DNA from: Burkholderiales bacterium RIFCSPLOWO2_02_FULL_57_36
GTDB taxonomy: Bacteria; Pseudomonadota; Gammaproteobacteria; Burkholderiales; Burkholderiaceae_D
Direction of reading: 5' to 3'
Assembly (NCBI GenBank): GCA_001770855.1
Contig: MESE01000069.1
Span: forward strand, 1-64,000
DNA: 64,000 nucleotides
Below are positions 45,243 through 50,479 of this stretch, piece by piece. The number at the start of each line of letters is the position of its first letter. The stretch's first letter is position 1. Under the pieces are notes generated by a model. It saw only the letters and a list, made by a program, of their open reading frames with translations. It was not told the DNA's origin and did not search any database. Both the position numbers and the translations under genes were made by a program.

Positions 45243-46388
45243 ATGGAGTCGGGAAACATCGCCATTTCGCTGCATTCCAACTCGGTTCCTCATTTTGTGA
45301 ATGGAGCGATGGATCAGCTCTATCAGCACATGCACTCGTCCCTTGCGTATCACGGCATATACGGCCATATCACGCAAGACACGAGTACTTATGTTGCACG
45401 AAAGAATGGAGAGATCGTCGCGGTGATTTTATTTTGCATCGAGAATGGAAAGCTGCGCGTGCTCAACGAACAGTTGCGGCTCGAGGCGGACGAAATCCAG
45501 CGGTTTTCCGACTACATTTTTAACACCTGTCAATCCGTTCACGTTGTTACCTTTCCGGTAATAGAAAATACAATTAGCAGGTTATCGTTTCCGTATCAGC
45601 AATCCCTTTGCACGCAAGACATCGTACTGACGATGCCGGAATCGGTTGAAGCGTACTTGCACAGCCTCGGAAAATCGACGCGCAACTACGTCAAGCGGTA
45701 TCAAAACAAGCTCAAGCGCGACTTTCCATCGATGACCTGCAAAACTTATGGCAACCACGATGCGAGTGAGCAGCATATCCGCGACATCTGTGCCCTGAAC
45801 CGGGCGAGGATGGCAAACAGGTGCACATCCTCCTACATCGATGACGCCGAAACGGAAAGGCTCATCAAGCTGGTCAGGATATGCGGCCTTGTGACTGTGA
45901 TCACAATCAACGGCAGCGTATGCGCGGGAACCATCAATTACCGCTTCGGCGAGAATTATTTCCTGAAGGTGATTGCGCACGACCCCGCGTATGACGAATA
46001 TGGCCTCGGCACGCTGTGCTGCTACCTCACCATTTGCGAATGCATCGCACGCAAGGGCAAGGAGTACCACTTCCTTTGGGGCAGGTATGAGTACAAGTTC
46101 CGGCTTCTCGGAATACAGCGCGATCTCAGTCATCTGGCGATCTACCGGTCGCGTCTCCATATGTTTCTCAACGGCCGCGACGCTTTGAAACTTGCTTACA
46201 ACGGGCGCATGTACGGCGCGAGAGACTGGATGGAACTCAAAATGAGAAGGATGGACAATTCCACCGTTTCTGGAAAACTGGCATTTCATTTCCTGAATAA
46301 TCTGAAAAAAATGAAACGCACCGTAGCCAGATGGCGTGCGCGCAGGCACGCCTCCGTAGTGGAACCGGCGTCGCTTCAGAAAGAGTAG
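45243..46388 (+). CDS. GNAT/BioF2-like acyltransferase, paralogue 1
   Basis: A 381-aa protein whose second half resembles the GNAT/BioF2-type acyltransferase fold (CelD/BcsL-like). Key segments are NYVKRYQNKLKRDFPSMTCKTYGNHDASEQHIRDI and the acyl-CoA-binding-like region GTINYRFGENYFLKVIAHDPAYDEYGLGTLCCYLTI. Its N-terminal half is less conserved. It is about 55 bp upstream of a paralogue sharing the same motifs. The 165 bp before it are free of genes. No signal peptide. Confidence 0.78.
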   Translation: MESGNIAISLHSNSVPHFVNGAMDQLYQHMHSSLAYHGIYGHITQDTSTYVARKNGEIVAVILFCIENGKLRVLNEQLRLEADEIQRFSDYIFNTCQSVHVVTFPVIENTISRLSFPYQQSLCTQDIVLTMPESVEAYLHSLGKSTRNYVKRYQNKLKRDFPSMTCKTYGNHDASEQHIRDICALNRARMANRCTSSYIDDAETERLIKLVRICGLVTVITINGSVCAGTINYRFGENYFLKVIAHDPAYDEYGLGTLCCYLTICECIARKGKEYHFLWGRYEYKFRLLGIQRDLSHLAIYRSRLHMFLNGRDALKLAYNGRMYGARDWMELKMRRMDNSTVSGKLAFHFLNNLKKMKRTVARWRARRHASVVEPASLQKE

Positions 46389-46443: not shown

Positions 46444-47598
46444 ATGGAGACGCGGATTCAGTCAACGAACGTGCCGGAATTCATTCAACTGAATGAAAAT
46501 CCCGCTTACCCGGACGAGGTGCGGATTTCTCATTACGACAATGAGGTGCCTGCATTTGCCGGACCGGAAATCGACCGTCTGTACGGACACCTGTATTGTT
46601 CACCCTCCTATTTTGTAGTTGCGAACGAGCTTGCCGGCGCCAGCACGTATGTCGCCCGGAAGGGCGACGACCCGGTTGCGATGCTGTTGTACAAACGGTC
46701 GGAAAATGAAGTGACGGTCATCAGCGATTACGTGAAGATTGATGAACAGGAAATCCGCCGGTTTGCGGACTGGGTCTTCAACAGCTTCAAGCCGGTCAAG
46801 GTCGTCTCCTTCAGGAAACTGCAGGCAGCGATTCATGACCTCGCCTATCCATGGCATGCCGTAACCTGCACCGAAGACATGGTCGTTACCTTGCCGCCGA
46901 CGGTGAAGGAATACGAGACGGCTGTCGGAAAAAACATGCGCAGGAACATCAAGCGCTACACGAATGCGCTGGTGAAGGACTTCCCCTCGTACCGCTATCG
47001 GCTTTACCTGGAGGCTGAAGTCAGTGAGCAGCATATCCGCGACATCATTGCCTTGAGCTGCACGCGAATGAAGAGCAAGAACATCGTGCCGCGTTTCAAT
47101 GAAGAAGAAACGCAATGGATCGTCGATTTTGCGAAAAAATGCGGGATCGTGGGCGTTGCCACAGTCGATGGCCGTGTCTGTGCCGGCGCGATCGGATTCC
47201 GCATGGGAGAAAACTGTTTCATGCACGTGATCGCGCATGACGTCAAATTCAACGATTACAGTCTCGGCATTCTCTGCTACTACCATACGATTTGCGAGAG
47301 CATTGCACGAGGTGCCAAGAATTTCCATCTGCTGCAGGGCAGATACGGATACAAATATCGTCTGCTTGCGCAAAGGCAGGACTTGATCCATCTCGACATT
47401 TATCGCAGCCGTTGGCATGCCCTTGCGCATGCGCGAAGAATTTTCGGAATGGAAGTCAGAGGCCGCATCCGTCTGATGAAGCAATGGCTGCTGCATGACG
47501 TCGAACGCGCGGAAGGCAGGGCGTACCGGCTTCTGGGCAAAGCGGTAAACAGCTTGCGAAGCATGAAGCGGTCGAGCCAGTCTTCCGCAATCGAATAA
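46444..47598 (+). CDS. GNAT/BioF2-like acyltransferase, paralogue 2
   Basis: A 384-aa paralogue of the preceding gene. Matching motifs are RNIKRYTNALVKDFPSYRYRL, EQHIRDIIALSCTRM, and GAIGFRMGENCFMHVIAHDVKFNDYSLGILCYYHTI. The two genes arose by tandem duplication and have clearly diverged, suggesting two related but separate acceptors. The acceptor (for example a polysaccharide or a lipid) cannot be named. A weak GC-rich hairpin is possible after the stop. Confidence 0.78.
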   Translation: METRIQSTNVPEFIQLNENPAYPDEVRISHYDNEVPAFAGPEIDRLYGHLYCSPSYFVVANELAGASTYVARKGDDPVAMLLYKRSENEVTVISDYVKIDEQEIRRFADWVFNSFKPVKVVSFRKLQAAIHDLAYPWHAVTCTEDMVVTLPPTVKEYETAVGKNMRRNIKRYTNALVKDFPSYRYRLYLEAEVSEQHIRDIIALSCTRMKSKNIVPRFNEEETQWIVDFAKKCGIVGVATVDGRVCAGAIGFRMGENCFMHVIAHDVKFNDYSLGILCYYHTICESIARGAKNFHLLQGRYGYKYRLLAQRQDLIHLDIYRSRWHALAHARRIFGMEVRGRIRLMKQWLLHDVERAEGRAYRLLGKAVNSLRSMKRSSQSSAIE

Positions 47599-47989: not shown

Positions 47990-48032
47990 CGGACTGATTG
48001 CCGAGTCATGCGGAAAGCCAGTGTGGCTCCGT

Positions 48033-48227
48033 TCAATGGAGAGACCGATTTGTCTGTTTGTGCATCAAAGTGGGCTGGTATGCATTGGCGTGGCGCATTT
48101 TATAGAGATCGCGCACCGTGAAAGTGCAGGCATAGACGTTAACGGATCCGCATGCATCGTCTACCCGGTAGCCGAGCTTTTCCAGTCGTTCGTTCCGATC
48201 CTGATTGTTTACACATCGGCGACGCAT
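48033..48227 (-). CDS. possible small hypothetical protein, 64 aa
   Basis: A 64-aa ORF (MRRRCVNNQDRNERLEKLGYRVDDACGSVNVYACTFTVRDLY...). The amino-acid pattern is reasonably natural, with LEKLGYRVDD and VYACTFTVRDLY segments, but there is no strong ribosome site and no recognised domain. It would be transcribed after the long palindrome at 48326-48501. Uncertain. Confidence 0.3.
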   Translation of the reverse strand: MRRRCVNNQDRNERLEKLGYRVDDACGSVNVYACTFTVRDLYKMRHANAYQPTLMHKQTNRSLH

Positions 48228-48325
48228 TCAAGATATCTCGAAAAATCGCAACTTGTGACGCAACTTGCGCTCTGAATGATAACGACAATTAATTCTGTGC
48301 AGCGCCGCTGGAATGGCACTGCACA

Positions 48326-48501
48326 CTAGTAGTCCGTCGCACTCCAATTTACGGGTTCTGCCACATTGCTCGAAGGCGATTGCGGCGTTGCCGATGCGCG
48401 ACAGGGGAACGCCCTGTCTGTGCTCGCCGCCTTGCACTCACCCTCGATCAACGCGGCAGACCGCTTCGCTACCCGCAAATCGAAGCGTGACGAACTACTA
48501 G
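48326..48501. repeat. 176-bp long imperfect palindrome
   Basis: Outer arms 48326-48356 and 48471-48501 are complementary over 31 bp with six mismatches, all transitions. Pairing continues inwards (TCTGCC region against the GGCAGA region, one 10-nt bulge) to an apex hairpin GACAGGG/CCCTGTC (48400-48418). The whole segment folds into one hairpin. Most arm mismatches become G-U pairs in a minus-strand RNA. It lies 36 bp before the SRPBCC start codon, in its probable leader. No gene is supported inside. Confidence 0.75.
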
Positions 48502-48536
48502 CCGATAAAGACCGGCACGAGACAAGGAGATCCACC

Positions 48537-49496
48537 ATGGCAACGATTCAGCAATCCATCGAAATCAAAGTTCCGGTACAGACGGCGTACAACCAGCTCA
48601 CCCAGTTCGAAGATTATCCTCGTTTCATGGAAAACGTTGAAGCCGTGCAACAGATCGACGATACGCATCTGCACTGGACAACCGTCATGTCGAACCACTC
48701 CGTCGAATGGGATGCGGAAATTACCGAACAGGAACCGGATCGCTGCATCGCGTGGCATAACATCAGCGATCCAGCCAGCGCAGGCAAGGTAGAAGTGCAG
48801 TCCGCGGGCTCGAACGCGTCGCGCGTCATCTTCACGCTGCAGGCAGCGGGTTCGCCGGCCGGCAATAACGAGCAGGAAATGGCGCAGCGGCTCAAGCAGG
48901 ACCTGGCGCGCCTGAAAGATTTTATCGAGGCACGCAGATCGGCAACCGGTGCTTGGCGCGGCGAAGTGCATGACGCGCAAGTGACCATGCGCGACCGCGA
49001 TGCAAAAAGACAAGAGCAAGAGAATGGCGGCAATGCGCCGGCTGCCGCATCGGGATATGCAGCAGGCTCCGAAGGCTGGTCCGGCGATGAAGATCCGGCG
49101 GCGCCGGTCGTATCGTCATCCCGGATGACGGCGGAGCAGCGCGATGATTTCGCAGAATCGGTATCGCGTCGGCCGGCGCCATCGCCCTCCGATGCAGGAG
49201 AAGGCAATCCGCAGATAAACGCATCGACGCAGTCCGATTATTCATTGTCCAGGCCGTCGGATGACGGCAGTGCCGACGACGGACGGTTTTCCATCGCGGA
49301 AGAGGTGAGTTTTGATCAGCAATCCGATGCGGCGCGAAACATAGGACATATGCCGCAGGACACGAGTGCCGATCACCATGGCGGAACCTCTGCTCCCGAT
49401 GCGATGAGAAAAACGCTGCAGCAGGACGAGCAAGACGCGAAAGACAATGCAAAGTTGAAGCCATCGATAGACCGCGCGGTACCACCATCGGAATAA
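48537..49496 (+). CDS. SRPBCC (Coq10/START-like) protein with disordered tail
   Basis: A 319-aa protein. Residues 5-145 form a SRPBCC/polyketide-cyclase domain: IEIKVPVQTAYNQLTQFEDYPRFMENVEAVQQID with HNISDPASAGKVEVQS later. This fold binds small hydrophobic ligands. Residues 150-319 are low-complexity, rich in Asp, Ser, Ala, Gln and Pro, probably disordered. The start at 48537 has an AAGGAG ribosome site; the longer frame from 48366 lies in the palindrome. Family members with this tail occur in betaproteobacteria; function unknown. Confidence 0.85.
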   Translation: MATIQQSIEIKVPVQTAYNQLTQFEDYPRFMENVEAVQQIDDTHLHWTTVMSNHSVEWDAEITEQEPDRCIAWHNISDPASAGKVEVQSAGSNASRVIFTLQAAGSPAGNNEQEMAQRLKQDLARLKDFIEARRSATGAWRGEVHDAQVTMRDRDAKRQEQENGGNAPAAASGYAAGSEGWSGDEDPAAPVVSSSRMTAEQRDDFAESVSRRPAPSPSDAGEGNPQINASTQSDYSLSRPSDDGSADDGRFSIAEEVSFDQQSDAARNIGHMPQDTSADHHGGTSAPDAMRKTLQQDEQDAKDNAKLKPSIDRAVPPSE

Positions 49497-50286: not shown

Positions 50287-50479
50287 AATCCGCACGGATC
50301 ATTTTTCGCGCTCATGTCGCCGGGTCACGGCATTATGGCAAAAAATCCCGGCGTCTTGCCAGCCCTTTCATTTCCGGTTTTGAATGCGCCGCTTTCCTGC
50401 GCAAGGATGGTCGGTGCGGCGGTCTCGTCGAAGAGACCGGGCACCGCAACATGCGCGCGAAAAATGATCTGTGCGGATT
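50287..50479. repeat. 193-bp element with 31-bp inverted ends
   Basis: Arms 50287-50317 and 50449-50479 are complementary over 31 bp with only two mismatches. Weaker pairing extends inwards for about 20 bp, and a small GGTCTC/GAGACC stem lies inside. It sits between the YjbR-like gene and the second depolymerase. Size and end structure resemble a MITE or a large regulatory hairpin. ORFs on both strands here encode near-identical peptides (IIFRAHVA) because of the symmetry, so they are spurious. Confidence 0.7.

Follow-up and report, generated by a model that had tools for sequence, protein, structure and literature searches.

The window, by which we mean the whole stretch of 64,000 nucleotides analysed, contains a long palindrome at 48326-48501, placed in the leader of a SRPBCC gene. 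As had been proposed, the open reading frame of this gene (48537-49496) matches PF03364, and it begins 35 nt past the element. The features of the locus are as follows.

48326-48501: the whole feature, a 170-bp MITE at 48329-48498 (GTAG...CTAC) with TA on both sides inside CTAG, delimited from own-genome copies and their flanks.
48327-48328: left TA, a presumed target-site duplication, from TA-flanked own-genome copies.
48329-48356, plus strand: left terminal inverted repeat, resembling the end of an IS630-family IS of relatives (CTAGTAGKCCGTCACWCTTCAATTTTCGG), from the ends at loci L097 and L098.
48367-48450, minus strand: core module, a conserved folded hairpin, from the match to covariance model R2 and from covariation.
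48400-48418, minus strand: apical 7-bp stem and 5-nt loop, of variable sequence and paired in other copies.
48461-48470, minus strand: one-sided 10-nt bulge at the boundary of outer and inner stem, from the fold and alignment A1.
48471-48498, minus strand: right terminal inverted repeat, with six transitions relative to the left arm, five of them giving minus-strand G-U.
48499-48500: right TA, a presumed target-site duplication, from TA-flanked own-genome copies.
48537-49496, plus strand: SRPBCC (Polyketide_cyc) gene downstream of the insertion, PF03364, E 9e-13.

The coordinates of the palindrome and its folding on itself were confirmed. Between the outer 31-bp arms (48326-48356 and 48471-48501) there are exactly six mismatches, at 48334, 48339, 48341, 48344, 48346 and 48351, each of them a transition, and the apex is the perfect 7-bp hairpin that the original prediction described, closed by a 5-nt loop at 48400-48418. 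When the region 48306-48521 was folded as minus-strand RNA, a free energy of -117.8 kcal/mol (z -8.0) was obtained, against -91.1 kcal/mol (z -5.0) for the plus-strand RNA, and none of 200 shuffles folded as well for either strand. It had also been claimed that most mismatches, outer and inner, become G-U pairs on the minus strand. The claim holds for the outer arms, where five of the six transitions do so (48339 is the sole one giving G-U on the plus strand). In a strand-neutral alignment of the arms of the 170-bp element, 10 minus-strand wobbles were counted versus 5 plus-strand ones, and within the outermost 50 nt the split is 9 to 1; thus, the outer part is strongly biased and the inner part is not. 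No promoter- or terminator-like sites were found in 47990-48640, and an origin from a tRNA was rejected, the window having no tRNA gene. Elsewhere in the window, the adjacent genes at 45243-46388 and 46444-47598 both match the GNAT family Acetyltransf_6, and a second long inverted repeat lies at 50287-50479, with 34-nt arms that are 91% complementary and 125 nt between them; R2 gave no match there, so this repeat is different from the core element.

Its near-identical copies, its IS630-type ends and the flanking TA identify the palindrome as a MITE of IS630 type that has inserted into the SRPBCC leader. The own genome (5.4 Mb in 151 contigs) holds five copies, that of the window included, which are 98-99% identical across 176 bp, besides diverged copies and longer ones with an insert near the middle; three pairs of loci (L007/L011, L008/L012 and L009/L010) are window-type elements of 246-320 bp whose middle is interrupted by extra sequence. 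Copies 81-86% identical were found in three other genera. The original prediction had offered a decaying MITE as one possibility: the MITE stands, and decay does not, since the own-genome copies are near-identical. The boundaries of the copies are fixed at the same bases, GTAG...CTAC. TA lies on both sides of all eight window-type copies tabulated in the own genome and in 12 of the 22 tabulated rows overall, the others having TG, CA, AA or something else on a side, and the duplication itself is presumed.

The element is too short to encode a transposase. Ends akin to its own were found in relatives, at L097 and in a 1.2-kb IS of G054 (L098), which carries HTH_32 and DDE_3 in two overlapping minus-strand frames and is therefore an IS630-family element. 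A 94-nt related IS end (CTAGTAGTCCGACACGG...) occurs at four contig ends of the own genome (L041, L043, L045 and L078, on C6, C44, C53 and C135); the interior of this IS was not found in the own assembly, and the 94 nt were traced to a deletion derivative in a relative. The sole DDE_3 gene found in the own assembly, a 377-aa IS630-family ORF on contig C82 (L077) adjoined by a further inverted repeat, was considered as a mobiliser and rejected because its ends differ (CTAGTGTTCTATCTCAG). Plasmids gave no match to the window element by blastn and no relative in a search with a 29-residue peptide.

At the insertion site, eight SRPBCC homologues in relatives show no obvious copy of the element in the 110 nt upstream. 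The homologue in G080 has the same flank, and its span from flank to ribosome-binding site is 185 nt shorter (the element measures 176), with a stretch between that is not alignable base by base. Upstream of the homologue in G023, locus L288 has 13 nt identical to the MITE end (GTTCGTCACGCTT), which by eye lie within apparent coding sequence and probably match by chance. For plasmids, the Cupriavidus plasmid pMTS2 has an element between two genes where Burkholderia multivorans has none, the junction not being alignable, and a second presence/absence query returned no informative case. The core strand of the window element is antisense to its plus-strand neighbours. Over 56 of 64 loci, the orientation of the core relative to the neighbouring ORFs shows no bias (++ 19, -- 13, convergent 14, divergent 10), and this makes it unlikely that the core serves host genes as a fixed regulator. 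A function in the life of the element, such as tolerance, protection or mobility, fits better.

The inner part of the palindrome, about 84 nt on the minus strand, belongs to a structured module that we call the core. Two covariance models were used for searching: R1, built from 11 window-type copies (alignment A1), and R2, built from 65 diverse cores (alignment A2) and giving rough E-values after a short calibration. For A2, 86 sequences were thinned to 67 by similarity, and then L181 and L187 were left out owing to a shared insert. R2 scores the window core (48367-48450) with 71.7 bits and an E-value of 1.8e-17, the window copy (L001) being among its 65 training sequences. A covariation analysis of homologous loci, which the original prediction had proposed, shows core stems that covary strongly and internal-loop bases that are invariant. 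In A2 the core consists of three helices separated by conserved, asymmetric internal loops (5' CAAGGCG..., 3' ...GCAACGC). Paired cells amount to 87.2%, versus 59.8% in shuffled and 34.8-44.9% in slid alignments, and cells with two-sided change number 467 versus 174.5 in shuffles; counted as pairs, two-sided change was seen in 21, not above the shuffles (20.0; 129/500). Columns A20, G21, A64, C65 and G69 are invariant, and C18, G22, C23, G24, C25, C30, G34, G61, C62 and A63 are conserved at 90% or more, all of them in or beside the internal loops. A third alignment, A3, fitted to the R2 model and formed by 48 matches from 36 loci outside the order, is 91.8% paired (55.8% shuffled), with 404 two-sided changes (113 shuffled). 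The 10-nt bulge is missing from two of the 11 copies of A1. In the cores of G215 (L258 and L273) the apical part is about 20 nt longer and the loop motifs are kept.

The core is widespread. Among 148 genomes from the family and order, 43 have a match to R1, and the loci inspected share the inner part and differ in their outer arms, which resemble the ends of other transposons; inspection by eye of R1 and R2 matches covered the fetched loci. R2, with at most about 11 places per genome scored, matches 103 of 398 Pseudomonadota genomes at E <= 0.001, that is, about a quarter of the sample: 19 in the order (own genome included) and 84 outside it, made up of 27 from the rest of the class and 57 from the rest of the phylum. 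When 16 genomes known beforehand to be positive were scored more fully, every one of them matched, at 3 to 71 places each; the own genome has 22 places, and a genome of family f54, which is probably Pseudomonadaceae, has 71. Plasmids carry the core too, in Cupriavidus, Comamonas, Variovorax, Azotobacter, Pseudomonas and Pseudoalteromonas, in Halomonas by blastn only, and in Photobacterium and Vibrio as partial blastn matches. As a check that uses no structure model, the element L130 of a relative was compared by blastn with plasmids; nine of the 11 records aligned only within query positions 48-112, which is the core; the other two align elsewhere and look like chance.

The elements around the core end in different ways. 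The search covered 19 end types. Inverted pairs of 17 of them, spaced 60-420 bp, are present in loci with a core, and the core was recognised between the two ends by sequence similarity in 16 types and by R2 in the seventeenth (L241). In the own genome the core is found with three or more end types. The end types form roughly two groups: one begins with GT..., is IS630-like and has been seen with TA; the other is GRGYCTGTT-like, with TTA or TAA flanks in a few, and may be IS5-like. Since the end types fall into two broad groups, the 17 are not all independent. Two elements of one genome (L181 and L187 in G027) have different ends and the same short insert at the same position of the core, which suggests that cores have been exchanged between elements by recombination.

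Besides its conserved fold, the core marks a preferred strand of the elements that carry it. For a test of the arms, 101 loci were tried; five scored too low (L118, L120, L090, L153 and L154), six duplicates were removed (L155, L175, L195, L200, L202 and L216) to leave 90 elements, and four of these with a short arm were removed to leave 86. Once a loop was put in place of the core, folding of the arms favoured the core strand in 82 of the 86 elements and in 13 of 14 arm clusters, one of which is a group of 39 elements lumped by single linkage. The core alone shows no strand preference (40/86). Of the whole 90 elements, 85 are more stable on the core strand, which over the full set carries 663 G-U versus 530 A-C, flank noise included. 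Since R1 derives from a single strand, it might preferentially detect elements that wobble on that strand; this is answered in part by copies found with R2, a model that leaves the outer arms outside: 43 loci were examined, and the 26 with alignable outer arms, not all independent, favour the core strand by 19 versus 6, with one tie. Counted as events, wobbles favour the core strand significantly in A1 (26 vs 7, with the structure taken from the window copy) and in A3 (14 vs 4, fitted to the model). By cells, A2 holds 113 G-U and 49 A-C. The original prediction had opposed to a selected hairpin the existence of related copies with random mismatches. Such copies exist, and their mismatches are not strand-random, the excess being modest in some counts, such as that of events over the 24 core pairs of A2 (13 vs 9, p 0.52, not significant).

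In many elements a CCCGAAGGG-like linker connects two hairpins. Among 29 such loci chosen by eye, 16 of them from one genome (G112), the second hairpin is more core-like in the inverted sense in 27, clearly in G112 and weakly elsewhere. It folds better on the strand of its own inverted core in 26 of the 29, that is, in 16 of 16 in G112 and in 10 of 13 in five other genomes.

A strand preference that recurs in elements with different arms supports selection on the folded single strand. Thus, single-strand folding is probably under selection, and in this respect the hairpin proposed for the minus strand stands, with RNA as a candidate for the molecule concerned. We think that RNA is likelier than single-stranded DNA, even if some of the strand counts are weak. 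On balance, we favour the view that the window feature is a non-autonomous IS630-type MITE with a separate hairpin module inside it, selected on the core strand and most likely as RNA. The MITE would be moved in trans by an IS630-family transposase recognising its ends, as the similarity of the ends and the copies suggest. Its interior is a separate hairpin module, whose stems change freely yet stay paired, and throughout Pseudomonadota this module recurs, single or in head-to-head pairs, within MITE-like elements whose ends are different. Selection would act on the folded single strand, with the strand set by the orientation of the core. Any RNA transcribed through the element in the sense of the core would adopt the fold, and its invariant loops may be bound or cut by an RNA-binding protein or RNase that is conserved among many hosts; this would make insertions tolerable or protect the element.

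The molecule under selection could instead be single-stranded DNA, the hairpin being extruded during replication or transposition and read by a nuclease, a HUH enzyme or a transposition or replication protein, as in REP/RAYT systems. G-T mismatches are also well tolerated in single-stranded DNA, which counts for this reading, as does the absence of a gene-orientation bias. The head-to-head pairs put one core on each strand, as in REPINs, and three of the 17 end types start with GTAG or GTGG, like the feet of REPs. Nevertheless, the differing end types suggest that the hairpin is not read by any single transposase, and two of the three Y1 loci of the own genome (L076 and L074) gave no core when searched with R2. 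An autonomous element was looked for between convergent cores in G492, and the one pair examined turned out to be two solo elements around ordinary-looking ORFs. We regard this explanation as unlikely.

Very unlikely, in our opinion, is a plain MITE with no strand selection, in which the wobbles arise from strand-biased deamination (for instance, of a non-template strand) changing C to T on the core strand. Such changes are indeed the largest class of events in A1 (15), A2 (8) and A3 (11), but A>G also exceeds T>C on the core strand in A1 (11 vs 3) and A3 (3 vs 1), being equal in A2 (5 vs 5). Moreover, two-sided changes are numerous and the preferred strand differs between the two hairpins of one element. 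As for a functionless, decaying IS630 MITE whose core similarity reflects shared ancestry of MITEs with fast-evolving ends, the rough division of the ends into GT... and GRGYCTGTT-like, some perhaps related by descent, speaks for it, but the near-identical recent copies, the invariant loop bases and the stems that turn over yet stay paired make it hardly tenable.

If the favoured reading of the window element is extended to the phylum, the core would be a strand-specific folded cassette shuffled among MITEs of different transposon families, giving all of them some shared property through an RNA or single-stranded DNA hairpin that binds a host protein. We put this forward tentatively, as a proposal a little short of an even chance. 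If true, a single folded hairpin would have moved across Pseudomonadota from one kind of vehicle to another, and selection for a structured, non-coding module within MITEs of differing ends would be unusual. The invariant internal loops predict a conserved partner. In addition, the R2 covariance model can be used to annotate intergenic sequence in many genomes.

Comparison with known systems gave no name for the core module. In the window and in 30 other loci (18 + 12), no family of Rfam release 15 reached its gathering cut-off, and no description of the core was recognised among the matches listed in the open-licence literature, in whose main text sequence strings were sought. QMITE2, R200, CIR, NEMIS and ERIC were compared with it by their published descriptions.

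RUP of Streptococcus pneumoniae is an IS630-derived MITE, short and TA-ended, with ends matching an IS630-family transposon (PMC2229807, in excerpt). The window MITE is likewise short and TA-flanked with IS630-type ends, but RUP is said in that excerpt to show no other signature of structure or function, whereas the window MITE has a structured core that elements with other types of end also carry. NEMIS/Correia and ERIC are likewise palindromic MITEs with TA at their ends, and their hairpins, as RNA, affect mRNA (PMC2229807); no such core is described for them in the excerpted text, and they were compared with the window MITE by description only.

REP and REPIN resemble the present elements in their inverted hairpin pairs, and a GTAG or GTGG start is shared by the window ends and by two of the remaining 16 end types. 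The other 14 begin differently, so the GTAG foot fails as a general feature of the core; furthermore, the ends and TA flanks found here resemble those of a DDE transposon.

The CIR of Caulobacter, of about 110 bp, has two hairpin arms and a linker, with GANTC at a loop (PMC2229807, in excerpt), which by description is like our two-hairpin elements. In Pseudomonas fluorescens, R200 and R178 are intergenic repeats of 320 and 101 bp (PMC2718517, in excerpt); this host group also has copies found with R2. QMITE2/CbsR16 of Coxiella burnetii is a palindromic MITE with relatives in other Proteobacteria, a conserved stem and a variable tip (PMC5896051, in excerpt); by this description it might prove a member. 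We think that QMITE2, R200 and CIR are plausible relatives by description, and one of the three could be an already named member.
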